Shown in pieces: positions 39,827-49,588 of a stretch of DNA of 64,000 nucleotides. The DNA is from a virus. How positions within the stretch are numbered: position 1 is the first letter of the stretch; each line of letters starts with the position of its first letter. The notes below the pieces were generated by a model. The model saw only the letters and a program-made list of their open reading frames with translations. It had not been told where the DNA came from and made no database searches. The DNA lies in IMG/VR virus record IMGVR_UViG_3300022866_000322, positions 62,001 to 126,000 of that record; one strand, given 5' to 3'. The position numbers and the translations under genes are program-made.

Positions 39827-40662
39827 CCCATTATCAAACACTAGGCGTAGCAGAAAATACCTCCCAAGATGATATCAAAAAAGCATATCGCAAACTCGCG
39901 ATGCAACATCATCCTGACCGCAATAATGGTGACGATACAAAATTCAAAGAAATACAAATTGCATACGATGCTGTAGGTGACGAACAAAAACGTCAGCAGT
40001 ATGACATGCAAAGACAAAATCCAGGTGGCATTAGGTTTAACATCAATAATGGACAACATCCAGACATTGATGAGATGTTGCGTAACTTTGGCTTTGGGTT
40101 TGCAAGAGGGCAAGATCCTTTTAGTGGTTTTAAGCAACCTAGAAAGAATAAAGACCTACGAGTAGAATTAGTAGTGCCGTTAAGTAGTACACTAGACGCA
40201 CAAACTAAGACAATAAGTGTGCAAACAACCAATGGCCAAAGGCAAACGGTTAATGTAAAACTTCCTAGAGGAATAGTACCCGGAAGCACTATTAAATACC
40301 CACAACTAGGCGATAGTTTTTTTGAACAGTTGCCACAAGGTGATTTATACATCCAAGTGCAAGTGCAAAACGACACAGACTTTGCTGTCAATGGGTTAGA
40401 CTTGTACAACGCCATTGACATAAATGCAATAGATGCTATAATAGGTACTAAGATAAGTGTTACAAGTATAAGTGGCAAAACATTTGAAATGAACATCCCT
40501 GCAGGTACACAGCATGGCAAGAAGTTTAAGATTCCCAGCAACGGGCTGTATACAATGAATCAATCTAGTAGGGGAAGTTTGATAATAGTTATTAACATAG
40601 TTATTCCGACAGATTTAACTGGTGAGCAACTGCAAACTTTACGCACAATCAATAACCTTTAG
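39823..40662 (+). CDS. DnaJ/CbpA-type J-domain cochaperone
   Basis: A J domain at residues 3-62 carries the HPD motif at 30-32 (QHHPDRNN), which stimulates DnaK. A Gly/Phe-rich linker (FGFGFARGQDPFSGF) and a C-terminal substrate-binding domain with VKLPRGIVPGSTIKY follow. The zinc-finger region is absent, so it is class II (CbpA-like). No DnaK is in the window, so it presumably works with the host's. Confidence 0.92.
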   Translation: MTHYQTLGVAENTSQDDIKKAYRKLAMQHHPDRNNGDDTKFKEIQIAYDAVGDEQKRQQYDMQRQNPGGIRFNINNGQHPDIDEMLRNFGFGFARGQDPFSGFKQPRKNKDLRVELVVPLSSTLDAQTKTISVQTTNGQRQTVNVKLPRGIVPGSTIKYPQLGDSFFEQLPQGDLYIQVQVQNDTDFAVNGLDLYNAIDINAIDAIIGTKISVTSISGKTFEMNIPAGTQHGKKFKIPSNGLYTMNQSSRGSLIIVINIVIPTDLTGEQLQTLRTINNL

Positions 40663-40664
40663 CA

Positions 40665-40671
40665 CTAAATA
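40665..40671 (+). promoter_or_regulatory. late promoter-like element (CTAAATA)
   Basis: CTAAATATT lies in the 14-base gap before clpA, only five bases before the ATG. If it is used, the transcript would be almost leaderless, so it is weaker evidence than the other copies. Confidence 0.3.
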
Positions 40672-40676
40672 TTTTT

Positions 40677-42944
40677 ATGTTACAAACAAATCCTGAAATA
40701 GACTATGTAGTACAAGAAGCAACAAAACTAGCAAAGAGCTACGAGCATGAATACATCACAGTAGAACATGTAATGTTAGCCATGATTAGATACGAGCCGC
40801 TATGCGTTCTGTTTGAAAAATCTCAAATCGATGTAAAAACAATAGATGCAGATTTAAGCCTTTATATTTCTGAACAAGAAGATTTAGTGGTCCAAGGTTG
40901 TGAACCAAGAAAAACACATGCGCTCGAAAGAGTATTTAACAGAGCTTTGACTCAACTATTGTTTAGCGGGCGCACACAGCTACAGTTAATGGACTTGCTG
41001 TTAAGTATACAATCAGAAACAAATAGTTTTGCACAGTACTTTGCTGTAAAGCACGGGCTGACACGTGAAAAAATGTTAGAACTGTTTGCACTTGTTAATG
41101 CAGATGGCGAAAATAAGAAAGTAGTTAATGCAAGCAAAGCAGAAAGAATTTTAGAACACTATTGTGACAACCTTAACAAAAAGGTAGCAGAAGGAAAGAT
41201 AGACCCTGTCATTGGCAGAGAATTTGAGACAAACGAGATCATAGAAGTTATGGCTCGTAAGAATAAAAATAATGTGTTACTAATTGGAGATCCGGGTGTA
41301 GGCAAGACTGCAATTGCAGAAGGGCTTGCACTAGCAATCGAAGCAAATACTGTTCCGGAGTTCTTACAAGGTTACGTTGTTTACAATCTTGACATAGGCT
41401 CGTTGCTTGCTGGTAGCAGGTACAGAGGAGACTTTGAAGAAAAAGTACAAGAAGTTATTAAAGCCTTAACTGTTAAAGGGAAGGCAATACTGTTCATTGA
41501 TGAAGCACACCAAATGAAAGGTGCAGGCTCTACAGGGGCAAACGCAAGTGTAGATTTCAGTAACATGATAAAGCCTGCGATCGGCAAAGGCAAGATCAAA
41601 GTAATGGCTTCTACAACGTGGGAAGAGTATTCAAATAGTTTCGAAAAGGATCGTGCATTGATGCGCAGATTCCAGCGTATTACTGTTGATGAGCCTACAG
41701 CAGAAGTAGCAAAAGAAATACTTACAGGGCTGAAAAGTGTATTTGAAAAGTTCCATGGTGGTACAGTAACAAATGCTTCAATTGATGCGGCCGTTGATCT
41801 TAGTGTCAGATACCAAACAGATAAAAAACTGCCAGACAAGGCAATTGATTTAATCGACAGCACATGTGCCAGGTTAAAACTTAGCACTGCTATTTGGACA
41901 GTTACTAGAGCTGATATTATTGACAGCATTGCTAAGATGACTAAGATTCCTGCTGACCAAATTGGAAACCAGAAAGCAATTGTCAACTTCGAAGCGATTA
42001 TAAAAGAAAAACTGTACGGACAGGATCAAGCAGTTGACACTGTATTGGAAAAAATATATGTAAGTAGAGCTGGCTTGAAAGCAATTAACAAGCCCGTTGG
42101 TAGTTTCTTGTTTACAGGACCAACAGGCACAGGCAAAACAGAACTTGCTAAACTGTTAGCAGAAAACCTAGGCATGAAGTTATTACGTTACGACATGAGC
42201 GAATACCAAGAACGTCACACTGTAGCAAAGTTAGTTGGCGCACCTCCAGGGTACGTAGGCTACGATGACGGAAACTTAGGTGGTGGTATGCTTATTAGTG
42301 ATATCGAAAAGAATCCAAACAGTGTTATATTAATGGATGAGATAGAAAAAGCACATCCAGACGTTACTAATGTGCTATTGCAGATGATGGATGAAGGAAT
42401 GATTACCTCAAGCAACGGTAAGAAAGCAAATTGTCGTAACACAGTTATTATCCTTACCAGTAACCTGGGTGCCGCAGACAACGAAAATAACACAATAGGC
42501 TTTGGTGACGAACTACAAAAAACAGGCGAGGATGACAAAGCAGTTAAGAAGTACTTTGCTCCTGAATTTAGGAATAGACTAGACGGGACTGTGAAGTTCA
42601 AGAAACTTGACGAACTAAGCATGCGTAAGATCGTAACAAAGTATCTAGTAGAAATTAATGATTTACTACTAGATAAAAATCTAAAGGTTAAACTTACAGA
42701 ACCAGCAATAGGTGAACTTGTTGAACAAGGATTTGATCCCAAGATGGGAGCAAGGCCATTGCAACGCAAAATGAACGAAGAAATAAAAGTTCCATTGAGT
42801 AAAAAAATGTTGTTTGAGCCCATTGTGCCCGGTAGCATTATAACTGTAGACTTTCGAGATGATAAATTTACCTTTATTGTAGACTCACCAGAAAACACAA
42901 CACACAAAGTAGACGATGATGGATTTATTATACTGGAAGAATAG
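40677..42944 (+). CDS. clpA: ATP-dependent Clp unfoldase, ClpA-type
   Basis: A two-AAA+ Hsp100 protein of 755 aa, close to bacterial ClpA length. A double Clp-N repeat occupies about residues 1-140. Walker A motifs are GDPGVGKT at 204-211 and GPTGTGKT at 481-488, with FIDEAHQMKGAG and LMDEIEKAHPDV as Walker B regions. IGF at 607-609 is in the position of the ClpP-docking loop (IGL in ClpA, IGF in ClpX). The ClpB-type long coiled middle domain is missing. With phage ClpP at 1180-1770 it could form a phage protease or capture host ClpP. Confidence 0.95.
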   Translation: MLQTNPEIDYVVQEATKLAKSYEHEYITVEHVMLAMIRYEPLCVLFEKSQIDVKTIDADLSLYISEQEDLVVQGCEPRKTHALERVFNRALTQLLFSGRTQLQLMDLLLSIQSETNSFAQYFAVKHGLTREKMLELFALVNADGENKKVVNASKAERILEHYCDNLNKKVAEGKIDPVIGREFETNEIIEVMARKNKNNVLLIGDPGVGKTAIAEGLALAIEANTVPEFLQGYVVYNLDIGSLLAGSRYRGDFEEKVQEVIKALTVKGKAILFIDEAHQMKGAGSTGANASVDFSNMIKPAIGKGKIKVMASTTWEEYSNSFEKDRALMRRFQRITVDEPTAEVAKEILTGLKSVFEKFHGGTVTNASIDAAVDLSVRYQTDKKLPDKAIDLIDSTCARLKLSTAIWTVTRADIIDSIAKMTKIPADQIGNQKAIVNFEAIIKEKLYGQDQAVDTVLEKIYVSRAGLKAINKPVGSFLFTGPTGTGKTELAKLLAENLGMKLLRYDMSEYQERHTVAKLVGAPPGYVGYDDGNLGGGMLISDIEKNPNSVILMDEIEKAHPDVTNVLLQMMDEGMITSSNGKKANCRNTVIILTSNLGAADNENNTIGFGDELQKTGEDDKAVKKYFAPEFRNRLDGTVKFKKLDELSMRKIVTKYLVEINDLLLDKNLKVKLTEPAIGELVEQGFDPKMGARPLQRKMNEEIKVPLSKKMLFEPIVPGSIITVDFRDDKFTFIVDSPENTTHKVDDDGFIILEE

Positions 42945-45310: not shown

Positions 45311-45317
45311 CTAAATA
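45311..45317 (+). promoter_or_regulatory. late promoter-like element (CTAAATA)
   Basis: GCTAAATATAG lies directly after the preceding stop and 21 bases before ATG 45339. It heads the run of proteins with capsid-targeting-like N-termini. Confidence 0.55.
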
Positions 45318-45338: not shown

Positions 45339-46241
45339 ATGTTTATTGCTAATTTATTTGAAAACTATGTAAAAGAGAACAACGGCCCGGAAGTGGTAGT
45401 GGTATATCCAGGCCGTTTTCAACCTTTTCACTTAGGACACAAAGAAGTGTTTAACTCACTCCAAAACAAATTTGGACGTGATAATGTTTATATTGCAACC
45501 AGCAACAAAACAGACGGCGCTAAAAGCCCATTTAACTTTTCCGACAAAACCATATTCATGAATGCGGCTGGTGTACCTAGTGATCGCATTATAGAAGTTT
45601 CAAACCCATACGCTTTACCCCAGCAATTCAACCCAGAAAATACTATCTTTGTTGCAGTAGTAGGTAGTCCCGACAAGAATAGACTCAATCCAGATTCAAC
45701 TAAAAAAGACGGTTCGCCAAGTTATTTCAAGATGTTTGATAGTTTTGAAAAAGCTGAAACCGCAGATCGACATGGCTATGTAATCATTGCAGACGAACGC
45801 AATAAACAGATCACCTTAGGTGACGAAACTGTCGATGTTAGCCACGGCACACAGACTAGAGCCGCTTGGAACGCAGTTAGAAAAGATCCGAAACTGCGTT
45901 CCCAATTTTTAAAACAAATGTATGGCAGAGACGATCCAGAAGTTGGTCGTGTACTGGATAAGATTACCGAAACAGTGAATGAGATGGGTGGTGTAGGTGT
46001 AATTGCAAGCAAAGGGCAAGCAAAAGATCCACGCTATAGTATGAGCTTAACCAAAGACATTAGACCAGGTGAAACCAATAGACAGTTAGCGAAGATGGGA
46101 CTGGGCGCAAAAGTCACCAGTCTCGGCGAAGAGATTGCAACACTTAAAGAAAAGTGGAGTGCAAAGTACAAGAAAAGTATCGACTGTAATAACCCTAAGG
46201 GATTTAGTCAAAAAGCACATTGTGCAGGGAAGAAAAAATGA
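45339..46241 (+). CDS. NMN adenylyltransferase-like nucleotidyltransferase with N-terminal LFE tag and C-terminal Cys/Lys module
   Basis: The catalytic domain (about residues 18-170) has GRFQPFHLGH, the HxGH motif of NadM/NadR-like adenylyltransferases, and a Ser/Thr-rich stretch (SHGTQTRAAW) where the family's ISxTxxR motif would be. MFIANLFEN at the start resembles a T4-type capsid-targeting propeptide with an L-x-E cleavage site. A C-terminal module (KYKKSIDCNNPKGFSQKAHC) resembles Cys/Lys peptides often attached to phage proteins. It may make NAD or activate another nucleotide. Packaging in the head is inferred from the N-terminus. Confidence 0.82.
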   Translation: MFIANLFENYVKENNGPEVVVVYPGRFQPFHLGHKEVFNSLQNKFGRDNVYIATSNKTDGAKSPFNFSDKTIFMNAAGVPSDRIIEVSNPYALPQQFNPENTIFVAVVGSPDKNRLNPDSTKKDGSPSYFKMFDSFEKAETADRHGYVIIADERNKQITLGDETVDVSHGTQTRAAWNAVRKDPKLRSQFLKQMYGRDDPEVGRVLDKITETVNEMGGVGVIASKGQAKDPRYSMSLTKDIRPGETNRQLAKMGLGAKVTSLGEEIATLKEKWSAKYKKSIDCNNPKGFSQKAHCAGKKK

Positions 46242-46645
46242 GAATATTAGAAATTATAGAAGAAGCAAAATCAAGTTGCCCTATTGCAACACAAGACTTA
46301 GAAGTTAACACTGTTAATAGAGACTTTGCACAAGAAAAGTATAACTACGGTCCACTTAATATTGATGAGCCTGGCAATTATTGGGAAGGTGTTGCAAAAG
46401 AATGGGACACTACTGTAGAAGCCGCTAAAGAATCACTTTGCGGAAACTGTGTAGCATTCGATATAAGTCCACGCATGGAAGACTGCATGCCGGGTCCCGT
46501 GAGCGAAGATGGTGGTAGACTAGGTTACTGTTGGATGCACCAATTCAAATGCCACAGTCTAAGAACATGCCACACATGGGCAAAAGGCGGTCCAATTACT
46601 GACGACGAAGTTAGCTATGACTGGGACAAAAGAAGCAATGACTAA
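46238..46645 (+). CDS. Cys-rich protein (HiPIP-like pattern) with N-terminal IEE tag, 135 aa
   Basis: The ATG at 46238 overlaps the previous stop. Eight cysteines occur: one at residue 14, and seven in the C-terminal half as CGNC, then Cys-Met-Pro, then GYCWMHQFKC and RTCHTW. This is reminiscent of high-potential iron-sulfur or zinc sites. The N-terminus MRILEIIEEAKSS has the [LI]-x-E pattern of a T4-type prohead-protease site. No enzyme family recognised. Confidence 0.68.
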   Translation: MRILEIIEEAKSSCPIATQDLEVNTVNRDFAQEKYNYGPLNIDEPGNYWEGVAKEWDTTVEAAKESLCGNCVAFDISPRMEDCMPGPVSEDGGRLGYCWMHQFKCHSLRTCHTWAKGGPITDDEVSYDWDKRSND

Positions 46646-46757
46646 CACTGCAACAGAACAATGGTCATGCAGTGGTGGCAACGAGAGCTGGGATGGGCAC
46701 CCGTTGGTATATATACCAATTGGTAAACCTTGTCCTTATTGCGGAAATAGAGAGTAA
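46638..46757 (+). CDS. zf-CHCC-type zinc-finger miniprotein, 39 aa
   Basis: A short frame overlapping both neighbours (8 and 1 bases). It contains Cys11-Ser-Gly-Gly, then GHPLVYIPIGK with His21, then CPYCG with Cys32 and Cys35. This C-H-C-C order with HP-x-V-Y-x-x-I/L-G spacing is the zf-CHCC fold seen in NDUFS6-like proteins and many short bacterial zinc fingers. Function unknown. Confidence 0.7.
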   Translation: MTNTATEQWSCSGGNESWDGHPLVYIPIGKPCPYCGNRE

Positions 46758-47086
46758 TGGATACCACACAACATCGAACTATGACGTTTGATGTTAAAGC
46801 GGCCTGGCATGATGAGCCTCCTCCAGTTTATAGAATATTTGTTGATGGTCACTTGATCACCGAACGTACATTTGTATGGGCAGGTCACGAAACATATATA
46901 AAAGAAAATCTTGTGTGTGATTTACCGCCTGGCACACATGTGGTAAAAATTGAAAATGTGTCAACACATGGTGAATTTAAACTAAACAATCTGCTAATAG
47001 ACAACAAAGAACAACCCGAACAGCCAGGAAAAGACGGGTACGATCTCAGGCAGTGGACTTTCGTTTGCGATCTTAAACAGAGCTAA
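46757..47086 (+). CDS. hypothetical beta-sandwich-like protein, 109 aa
   Basis: Alternating strands (VYRIFVDGHLITERTFVW, then LPPGTHVVKIENVSTHGEF) suggest a carbohydrate-binding-module-like beta sandwich. It has no signal peptide and its ATG overlaps the preceding TAA by one base. Related in pattern to 44824-45309. Confidence 0.65.
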   Translation: MDTTQHRTMTFDVKAAWHDEPPPVYRIFVDGHLITERTFVWAGHETYIKENLVCDLPPGTHVVKIENVSTHGEFKLNNLLIDNKEQPEQPGKDGYDLRQWTFVCDLKQS

Positions 47087-47089
47087 ATA
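47083..47089 (+). promoter_or_regulatory. late promoter-like element (CTAAATA)
   Basis: GCTAAATATAA overlaps the preceding stop codon and is 22 bases before ATG 47112. Confidence 0.52.
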
Positions 47090-47111
47090 TAACTATTACA
47101 GGTATTAAACT

Positions 47112-47606
47112 ATGAAAACTAAAGATTTTATTAACGAAGCAGATTGTGCTATAGCCAACGATGCAGAAGTAATGCACCGAGATCACGAAGTACAGATGGC
47201 ACGTGGTCAGTTATATAATGCCGCACAATATGCTATCGAACTTCATCGCATGCTTAAAAACATAAGTGAAAGAGAAGGACTTGAAGGTTGGGTCCAAGCA
47301 AAAATTACCAAAGCAACTGATTATCTAAGTAGTGTTAAGCATCACTTAGAATATGAGCAAGTTAGCCAATCATCAGATGCTATGATGGATTTTGTTCCAG
47401 AAGGTGCAGAATATGCAATGGACAAGATACTAGACGAAACAGCAAGTGCAGGTGCCACAGGTGCAGGCTCTGTTGCTACAGCACCAACTGGTGATGGTGG
47501 TACAGGATTTGAAAAAGCAATTGGTCTTGGTAGAACACCGAACACCTACAAAAACAGTAGCAAGCAGGGCAAAGTTAAATTTGGCAAAGGCGTGTACAAC
47601 AAATGA
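47112..47606 (+). CDS. hypothetical protein with capsid-targeting-like N-terminus, 164 aa
   Basis: MKTKDFINEADC closely resembles the capsid-targeting propeptide of T4 internal protein III (MKTYQEFIAEA), with I-N-E followed by A as a prohead-protease site. The middle is helical (QLYNAAQYAIELHRMLKNI), and the C-terminal third is Gly/Ala/Thr-rich with a basic end. A late-type element precedes it. Best interpreted as a possible internal head protein; no domain recognised. Confidence 0.7.
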   Translation: MKTKDFINEADCAIANDAEVMHRDHEVQMARGQLYNAAQYAIELHRMLKNISEREGLEGWVQAKITKATDYLSSVKHHLEYEQVSQSSDAMMDFVPEGAEYAMDKILDETASAGATGAGSVATAPTGDGGTGFEKAIGLGRTPNTYKNSSKQGKVKFGKGVYNK

Positions 47607-48160
47607 GCTCGATGAAAGATCTACTGGAAAAAATGGACGACAACTATCCATTTGCTGGCGAAAAGGCAACGCCTAAACAAATACCTGGTGATCAAGTTCG
47701 TGGTACAGACGCAGTTAAGATTGCCAAGCGTACAGTTCCTTACCAAAAGCACCCACTCCAGGGAAAACTTGTAGGTGGTGGTGCCGCTGAAGAGTCTGTA
47801 GAGCAAATCGCAGAACAGTTACGCAAAGAGCTTGAAGAGTATGGTGCTCCTGGATCAGGGATGAGCCGTGGGTCAAGTATGGACCGAACAGAAGTTTCAC
47901 AGTTACGCAGAGATCAAAAAGCACAACAACAGCAAGCTGATTCGCAAGAAGATAATCTTGAAAAACAAATTAAGGGGTTGACACAGCAATCACTGGCAGT
48001 ATCAAAACAACCAGTGGCTCCACCTAATCCAAACGATCCAGCATCTGTTGCACAGTTTGCCGCGGCAAGTAATCAAAAGAGGGCAGAGAAGCAACAACTA
48101 GCACTGCAAAGAAGAGCTCTTAACCAACAGAAGAAACAGTTCACTCAGTATAGCGAGTAA
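47603..48160 (+). CDS. Gln-rich helical protein, 185 aa, possible head protein
   Basis: The start (MSSMKDLLEKMDDN) again contains an L-L-E tripeptide near the N-terminus. The central and C-terminal parts are Gln/Lys-rich helix (LRRDQKAQQQQADSQEDNLE), likely a coiled coil. It overlaps the preceding gene by an ATGA junction. Composition is like scaffold or core proteins, but no family is recognised. Confidence 0.65.
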   Translation: MSSMKDLLEKMDDNYPFAGEKATPKQIPGDQVRGTDAVKIAKRTVPYQKHPLQGKLVGGGAAEESVEQIAEQLRKELEEYGAPGSGMSRGSSMDRTEVSQLRRDQKAQQQQADSQEDNLEKQIKGLTQQSLAVSKQPVAPPNPNDPASVAQFAAASNQKRAEKQQLALQRRALNQQKKQFTQYSE

Positions 48161-48165
48161 TCACA

Positions 48166-48957
48166 GTGTATATTAATAACTTCACAAAAAATAAAAAGCA
48201 AAAGCCAGCACCTATTGTAGATAAGTCTACACAATATCAACTTGATAGAAATGCAAATCTTGCAACTGGCACAATAGGTGATGCATATGGTTCACTTAGT
48301 CAACCAAAAAGCACTACGCCACAAGCATATACTCCCCCAGTTAAGACAGTAACAAAGGGGTCAAAGCAAACAGTAAAACCAGTTAAGTTTAATCCCAGGG
48401 GCGGACCCATAATTGCACGTAATGGATCAAAGCAAACAGCAGGATCAACGCAAACAGTAAAACCAGTTAAGTTTAATCCCAGGGGCGGACCCATAATTGC
48501 ACGTGAAGAAATGGAAGAGTTTATAGAGTTTATTGATTCACACGACAATGAAATTATGACCGAAGCACAGTTTGATGAAGCCGCAGGTGAGAAAGACGCT
48601 TGCTACCATAAGGTCAAGAGTCGTTACAAAGTGTGGCCTAGTGCATACGCAAGTGGTGCATTAGTACAGTGCCGTAAAAAAGGTGCTAAGAACTGGGGCA
48701 ACAGTAAAAAGAAAAGCAACGAAAATGTAGAAATGGATAGCAAATTGGATGTTGACAAGTTGTTAACTAGCCTTAGAAATAGTAAAACCACTAATAGTGA
48801 CAGACTTGCAGATGCAATTGAAATGCGGTTCATGCATAACATGACCTTTAAAGAGATAGGTGAAGAATTAAATGTTGGTCCTAGTAGAGCCGCTACGATT
48901 ATTGAAAAGGCACTACGTTTGCTAAGGTGGCATGCCGCTAGGTCACCTGGGTCGTAA
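48166..48957 (+). CDS. multi-domain protein with C-terminal sigma-70 region 4-like HTH
   Basis: Starts at GTG 48166, so the start is uncertain. Order: basic disordered N-terminus with two identical 18-residue repeats (QTVKPVKFNPRGGPIIAR), an acidic linker, a Cys-bearing basic module (ACYHKVKSRYKVWPSAYASG, then LVQCRKKGAKNWG), and a C-terminal domain of about 60 residues. The latter reads RLADAIEMRFMHNMTFKEI, then GEELNVGPSRAATIIEKALR, matching the helix-turn-helix of sigma region 4.2. It could contact DNA or RNA polymerase, but no region 2 is present, so it is not a complete sigma factor. Confidence 0.72.
   Translation: MYINNFTKNKKQKPAPIVDKSTQYQLDRNANLATGTIGDAYGSLSQPKSTTPQAYTPPVKTVTKGSKQTVKPVKFNPRGGPIIARNGSKQTAGSTQTVKPVKFNPRGGPIIAREEMEEFIEFIDSHDNEIMTEAQFDEAAGEKDACYHKVKSRYKVWPSAYASGALVQCRKKGAKNWGNSKKKSNENVEMDSKLDVDKLLTSLRNSKTTNSDRLADAIEMRFMHNMTFKEIGEELNVGPSRAATIIEKALRLLRWHAARSPGS
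48367..48504 (+). repeat. exact 54-bp direct repeat
   Basis: The 54 bases at 48367-48420 recur identically at 48451-48504, offset by 84 bases (28 codons), so the reading frame is kept. The encoded unit is QTVKPVKFNPRGGPIIAR. Lack of any silent change indicates a recent duplication. Confidence 0.9.
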
Positions 48958-48985
48958 AAAAAACTTAATTAGGCATAGAATAGAA

Positions 48986-49588
48986 ATGAGACTAACAGAC
49001 TTTATCACAGAAAAATGCTGGAAAGGCTACGAAAAGAAGGGCATGAAAACCATGTTCGGCAAACGTGTGCCTAACTGTGTTAAAAATGAATCTGCAGATG
49101 CAGTATCACTAGACGAGCATGGCAACTTGATATTTGAAGATGGTGTTAGTGAAGACCTAAAGAAATGGTTCAAAGAGAAGTGGGTCCGCTTTGGTCCAGA
49201 TGGTAAGATACGTGGCGACTGTGCGAGAGGATCAAGCAAAGAAGGTAAGCCAAAGTGTTTACCACAATCAAAAGCACAAGCACTAGGCAAGAAAGGCCGT
49301 TCAAGCAGTGCGGCTAAAAAGCGTAGAGAAGATCCCAAAAAGAATCGCAAAGGCAAAGCCAAGAACGTTGCTACTAAGACACGTGGTATGAAAGAACAAG
49401 GACCACCTGATTACAGCACTGGTAAGTCAGCTGATCAAAAAGGAATAAGCCCTAGGACAGTTGGTAAAGTAATACTAGACCCAGAAGGTACTGCACGAGA
49501 GGCTGGCGGTAGGGTATTACAAAAAGGCATGAATGCAGTTAAGTGCGCAATTACCCAAGATCCAACCTACTGCAACCTATCCAAATAA
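48986..49588 (+). CDS. Lys-rich protein with Cys modules and capsid-targeting-like N-terminus, 200 aa
   Basis: ATG at 48986 gives MRLTDFITEKCWKGYEKKG, with I-T-E as in T4-type capsid-targeting propeptides; an ATG at 48932 would overlap the previous gene and bury this motif. Two basic Cys modules follow: CWKGYEKKG...PNCVKN and RGDCARGSSKEGKPKCLPQS. The middle is extremely Lys/Arg-rich (KKRREDPKKNRKGKAKNVA) and could bind DNA. A good candidate for a DNA-associated internal head protein. Confidence 0.7.
   Translation: MRLTDFITEKCWKGYEKKGMKTMFGKRVPNCVKNESADAVSLDEHGNLIFEDGVSEDLKKWFKEKWVRFGPDGKIRGDCARGSSKEGKPKCLPQSKAQALGKKGRSSSAAKKRREDPKKNRKGKAKNVATKTRGMKEQGPPDYSTGKSADQKGISPRTVGKVILDPEGTAREAGGRVLQKGMNAVKCAITQDPTYCNLSK

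Follow-up and report, generated by a model that had tools for sequence, protein, structure and literature searches.

In bacteriophage T4, the internal proteins IPI, IPII and IPIII, as well as Alt, are made from late-type promoters with a short N-terminal propeptide in which hydrophobic residues are followed by L/I-x-E; their payloads are diverse and share only this tag. The T4 capsid-targeting sequence (CTS) is ten residues long, and L/I-x-E is the cleavage rule of the gp21 protease (PMC9026906). Head-packaged enzymes that are thought to enter the host are also found among the polyvalent and MuF-fused effectors (PMC9503650), which travel fused to structural domains or as parts of huge polyproteins, whereas in the block analyzed below targeting would rely on a short cleavable tag. 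In addition, cytidylyltransferase/NMNAT-like enzymes of the nucleotidyltransferase superfamily (T4-GC190) have been detected by virion mass spectrometry in the cyanophages S-SM1 (PMC3037559), S-SCSM1 (PMC9602691), S-CREM2 (PMC10665884) and S-SZBM1 (PMC9146016), and the accessible parts of these papers describe no targeting tag. Here, we analyze a block of genes at positions 45339-49588 of a 64,000-base window (bases 62001-126000 of the 221,342-base IMG/VR virus record IMGVR_UViG_3300022866_000322).

We consider it highly probable that the proteins of this block are packaged into the phage head with cleavage by a gp21-type protease, and they may then be injected into the host. The record carries T4-type replication and head genes and belongs to an uncultured, marine T4-like phage, for which no near DNA match was found among 50,697 cultured phage records. 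The gp20, gp21, gp22-like and gp23 genes are all found in the same genome. The gp21-type prohead protease (record 210546-211187; phrog_207, E=1e-57) is encoded between the portal and capsid genes, with the scaffold gene adjacent as well, and SLQE-T occurs in the capsid protein where it would be expected, N-terminal of the conserved core. An earlier note on this DNA proposed a set of head-packaged proteins, and this reading is supported: a gp21-type protease is encoded, homologues keep the tag pattern, and tagged equivalents have been detected in purified cyanophage virions by mass spectrometry. As in T4, the tagged proteins have diverse payloads, and late-promoter-like elements precede two of the genes. 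The phage departs from T4 in what is tagged, namely a nucleotidyltransferase, an M78/IrrE-like peptidase, a sigma-region-4-like protein and basic modules with two cysteines (two-Cys modules); in addition, extra cleavage sites are predicted between modules, the genes are clustered away from the head genes, and the phages are marine and far from T4. What would be new relative to the T4 internal-protein system is the cargo, i.e. enzymes and shuffled two-Cys modules, and a predicted multiple cutting of module proteins.

Tagged N-termini in the 45339-49588 block

The five N-termini singled out in the earlier note are all present, on the + strand. They belong to an NMN-adenylyltransferase-like nucleotidyltransferase of 300 residues (45339..46241; MFIANLFE-N, residues 1-8), a Cys-rich protein of 135 residues (46238..46645; MRILEIIE-E, followed by the body CPIATQDLEVNTVNRD), a helical protein of 164 residues (47112..47606; MKTKDFINE-A), a Gln/Lys-rich helical protein of 185 residues (47603..48160; weak tag MSSMKDLLE-K) and a Lys-rich two-module protein of 200 residues (48986..49588; MRLTDFITE-K). 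The start at 48986 is an internal ATG of open reading frame (ORF) 48932-49588 and is confirmed as the start by its homologues, M1 being invariant in 22 sequences. The late-type promoter elements reported earlier are late-promoter-like CTAAATA sequences on the + strand at 45311..45317 and 47083..47089, 28 nt before the ATG of 45339 and 29 nt before 47112, respectively.

The bare motif is weak evidence because it is not enriched genome-wide: [LI]xE with the Glu at residue 7-11 occurs in 19 of 276 genes, where 13.2 would be expected. We therefore used a tag profile that was trained on other phages only and from which, for every protein scored, its own family was excluded; 826 internal-Met starts served as controls. 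None of the controls reached the scores of 48986 (15.8), 46238 (12.3) or 47112 (11.7), and three reached that of 45339 (6.4). The untagged neighbours 43859, 44824 and 46757 scored between -18.5 and -9.7. A T4-type CTS propeptide, about 10 residues long and ending in L/I-x-E, is thus found in four of the seven genes of the block (45339, 46238, 47112 and 48986); the five-member set of the earlier note holds for these four on profile score, and its fifth member, 47603, is weak (score 2.0, reached by 25 of the 826 controls). For the 47603 protein, homologues were limited to near-identical copies in viral_contigs, and a stronger homologue set was not obtained.

The tags behave as separable, swappable signals: bodies stay constant, tag letters change and the hydrophobic-x-E pattern is kept. 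In the 65 loci homologous to 46238, the body is conserved (CPxPTQDLxLNTxNRD) and the first residues are completely different (MKLKDILIE-S, MKSFFKFIKE-Q, MKKFKLFEE-F, MKLKKLLNE-A and MRFIEIKE-A). The 350 stretches related to 47112 include tags such as MRAKQIIRE-D and MKARDILKE-D, and residues 2-8 vary among the 48986 homologues (n=22), with E9 and E56 invariant. Of the 105 N-termini in seven families, 93 have hydrophobic-x-E at residues 7-13, and homologues keep the tag pattern though its letters change; in relatives it is retained in 20/22, 19/20 and 15/18 cases, values that none of 2000 shuffles reached. In a shuffle test of the seven families, the observed value was reached by none of 2000 shuffles in five of them and by 5 and 13 shuffles in the two small ones, counts that overstate independence since the sequences of a family are related and whose N-terminus lists were hand-picked from search output. 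Within the putative cleavage site, L or I occupies P3 in 77 of 83 instances and P1' is mostly A/K/G/S, in agreement with the gp21 rule and the ten-residue CTS of T4 (PMC9026906).

Two further proteins lie within the block on the + strand. The 109-residue protein encoded at 46757..47086 is untagged (profile score -10.1) and gave no family match in domain and phrog searches. The GTG-started protein of 263 residues (48166..48957) combines a two-Cys module (KDACYHKVKSRYKVWPSAYAS) with a sigma-70 region-4-like helix-turn-helix at its C-terminus; it matches PF04545 (E=8e-8, above cut-off) and phrog_727 (E=2.9e-26). Its own N-terminus, MYINNFTKNKK, is missing the tag Glu, and its homologues are tagged, e.g. 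MFVNDLFE-N (MFVNDLFENKK and similar), MKLSNFLNE-A and MKINDVLNE-S. Judging from its C-terminus, the 48166-48957 product might be a virion-carried transcription factor.

The nucleotidyltransferase and virion proteins of cyanophages

The 45339 enzyme matches PF01467 (E=2.6e-6, above cut-off) and the phrog_395/3041 cytidyltransferases, its HIGH-type motif GRFQPFHLGH is invariant in homologues, and its best solved relatives are NMN adenylyltransferases (NadM). That NMN is the substrate is a guess. No Nudix domain match was found in the enzyme, unlike in phage NadM pathways, and no PF04095 match to a NadV partner was found anywhere in the genome. AlphaFold models of the 45339 and 48986 proteins (from 14 and 22 sequences; pLDDT 51 and 48, respectively) were not usable, and a fold search with the 45339 model at this pLDDT of 51 returned no PDB match at E<=0.001. 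Besides its tag, the enzyme has a second possible site, VKE-N, at residues 11-13, and LKE-K at residues 269-271 directly precedes a C-terminal two-Cys module (KWSAKYKKSIDC..AHCAGKKK). In the 14 homologues, L6, F7 and E8 as well as L269, K270 and E271 are invariant.

All four virion enzymes of the cyanophages carry a T4-like tag, namely: MKKFSAFLNE-AE in S-SM1, MKSFLQFLKE-AA in S-SCSM1, MKNFSSFLTE-AD in S-CREM2 and MRFRQFIIE-AV in S-SZBM1. Within T4-GC190, the family of the S-SM1 enzyme, MK.F.AFLxE-A is present in 46 of the 46 homologues sampled. In untagged NadM-Nudix enzymes, from phages of Vibrio, Roseobacter and Xanthomonas, the N-terminus lies a few residues ahead of the catalytic motif, as is also the case for another nucleotidyltransferase of the present genome. 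The possibility that the 45339 product is a free metabolic enzyme was rejected on the basis of these untagged controls and of tag swapping. The 45339 enzyme differs from the cyanophage enzymes in having a C-terminal two-Cys module, and the relation is distant: the catalytic regions are no more than 21% identical.

The correspondence extends to the surrounding genes. ORFs 154, 155, 156 and 160 of one S-CREM2 block (PMC10665884) and ORF29 of S-SCSM1 (PMC9602691) are virion proteins. S-CREM2 ORF160 and S-SCSM1 ORF29 both carry the modules named B, C and D, and the gene content of the S-CREM2 block, in which module proteins lie near the enzyme, echoes that of 45339-49588. The NMNAT-like enzyme has been reported repeatedly in cyanophage virions with its route into the particle left unexplained, and a T4-like tag on all four enzymes offers a direct, testable answer. 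Our literature search on capsid targeting in cyanophages, which covered a minority of subscription papers, matched only the T4 review (PMC9026906) and found no paper linking such tags to virion enzymes; priority is not proven.

Two observations on cyanophage proteins are added here. S-CREM2 ORF156 (L456:2513-3226), one of the virion proteins, starts with MKKLISE-L and has a GGN..SDIDLHL motif resembling pol-beta-type nucleotidyltransferases; perhaps it represents another tagged enzyme class. A small conserved cyanophage protein with the body SVNISGDFNGNLYINS has a near-perfect T4 tag in S-SCSM1 (ORF30, L119:6783-7103; MKTFKQFMSE-S), S-RIM8 (SXDG_00037, L120:6525-6851; MKSYNEFISE-S) and S-SZBM1 (S-SZBM1_191, L457:42312-42629; MKSFKSFLSE-S).

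Two-Cys modules, predicted cleavage and competing explanations

Small basic two-Cys modules recur across different proteins. The 48986 protein, which matches phrog_727 and phrog_23735, consists of its tag, module B (CWKGYEKKGMKTMFGKRVPNCV), the site VSE-D with the second invariant Glu ([VLI]-x-E, E56), and module C (DCARGSSKEGKPKCLP). Of 23 contexts of module A, 96% have hydrophobic-x-E immediately in front of the module; for module B, it is found two residues ahead in 74% of 61 contexts (background 2.5%). Tags are also fused directly to modules, as in MRATEFITE-KWSKKYKDSINC and MRYYEFISE-KWSGKYKRSINC, and the module HEVQMARGQLY..EGWVQAKIT from the body of the 47112 protein occurs fused into larger proteins elsewhere. 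The phrog_727/gp114-like cyanophage proteins have the same modules (B, C, D, DUF6321) with predicted sites between them, fused in one long protein, whereas here the modules are split over separate tagged genes. The position of these sites at module edges suggests that the protease may also separate the modules.

From these data we infer a scheme in which the block supplies head cargo. Most of its proteins would start with a short capsid-targeting propeptide of about 8-10 residues, with a hydrophobic face and ending in [L/I]-x-E, that would attach to the scaffold core while the prohead is being assembled; the gp21-type protease would cut after the Glu, and the mature protein would remain within the head. 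Additional [L/I/V]-x-E sites located between domains are probably cut by this protease as well, which would release the small basic two-Cys modules. These modules probably sit on the DNA in the head, and it is probable that the enzymes are delivered to the host along with the genome. That the Lys-rich 48986 protein binds DNA is likewise a guess. The cargo, i.e. nucleotidyltransferase, Cys-rich, helical and sigma-region-4-like proteins and Lys-rich modules, appears to be shuffled between phages. A broader version, in which marine T4-like phages also use gp21 sites inside the prohead to divide modular polyproteins into numerous small, basic, DNA-coating two-Cys domains alongside swappable injected enzymes, with head contents evolving by domain shuffling, is put forward tentatively, at slightly short of an even chance. 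The tag would make it possible to predict from sequence what the abundant marine phages bring into cells at infection, and several unannotated modules that occur in hundreds of phages (phrog_727, DUF6321, DUF5872-like) would gain a first suggested role.

Several points weigh against head packaging, besides the limits of the shuffle test, the weak score of 47603 and the distance between the 45339 and cyanophage enzymes given above. The 48166 protein lacks the tag Glu and the 46757 protein lacks a tag. S-SCSM1 ORF30 (MKTFKQFMSES) is well tagged and small and is not marked as detected in the virion (PMC9602691), and a profile trained on the present clade fails to separate virion from non-virion proteins of S-SCSM1; use of the profile as a general virion predictor was dropped. 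Finally, virion mass spectrometry does not locate a protein inside the head.

This last point also bears on the idea that the proteins belong to the outside of the virion, as components of its neck, tail or decoration, and that their N-terminal helix serves in assembly and has no connection with gp21, since inside and outside are indistinguishable by this method and a cyanophage gp114-like module protein adjoins neck, tail and terminase genes. Yet the tag has the chemistry of a gp21 site (P3 L/I, P1 Glu, small or basic P1') together with the spacing of the T4 CTS, and the same tag is borne by nucleotidyltransferases and by a peptidase-like protein (see below), which makes outer parts a rather improbable account. 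Somewhat less unlikely, though still well behind, is that the proteins are head-core or scaffold helpers that are cut and mostly expelled at maturation, as happens in T4 to gp67, gp68 and gp22, which are processed at this L/I-x-E motif and for the most part lost (PMC9026906); the multiple internal sites in several cargo proteins would fit such a fate. However, the cyanophage equivalents, both enzymes and module proteins, stay in CsCl-purified virions, and an enzyme with conserved catalytic motifs would be an odd scaffold. The remaining alternative, coincidental amphipathic starts of small Lys- and Glu-rich proteins, draws on the lack of genome-wide enrichment of the bare motif (19 vs. 13.2) and is very hard to reconcile with the full leave-family-out profile, the shuffle results in five families and the sites at module edges; it was rejected on tag swapping. 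Head packaging is favoured by the tags, the protease gene and the tagged equivalents in cyanophage virions.

Second tagged cluster, promoter spacing and a conserved neighbour

Outside the window, the profile finds a second tagged cluster of three genes (record 40174-41068; L004:4174-5068). The first encodes a peptidase-like protein with HELTH and the tag MHIKDIINE-S; it is an M78/IrrE-like HExxH protein, with a PF06114 match below cut-off. The others have the tags MRASELYE-S and MRAREFVIE-N, the latter on a 65-residue basic Cys protein. In two loci (L363 and L367), an M78/IrrE-like peptidase domain follows a tagged nucleotidyltransferase-like domain within one protein.

In 11 genes of this genome (e.g. 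window 5926 and 40677), the sequence [AC]TAAATA precedes the ATG by exactly 12-13 nt, a good share of the genes with this spacing being tagged cargo genes. Of the 13 genes whose motif lies between -12 and -15, 12 are without a Shine-Dalgarno sequence; where it lies further upstream, 24 of 30 genes have one; in relatives (set 1; L012-L118 and L370-L449), all 34 genes with the motif at -12/-13 are without a Shine-Dalgarno sequence. No peak of [AC]TAAATA at -12/-13 was seen in the cyanophage GC190 loci and S-SCSM1. Genes with this spacing are possibly leaderless late genes. One of them, at 40677-42944, encodes a large Clp-ATPase-like protein (LQTNPEIDYVVQEATKLAKSYEHEYITVEHVMLAMIRYEP) with CTAAATA 12 nt before its ATG, and this gene is kept upstream of the cargo block in relatives.

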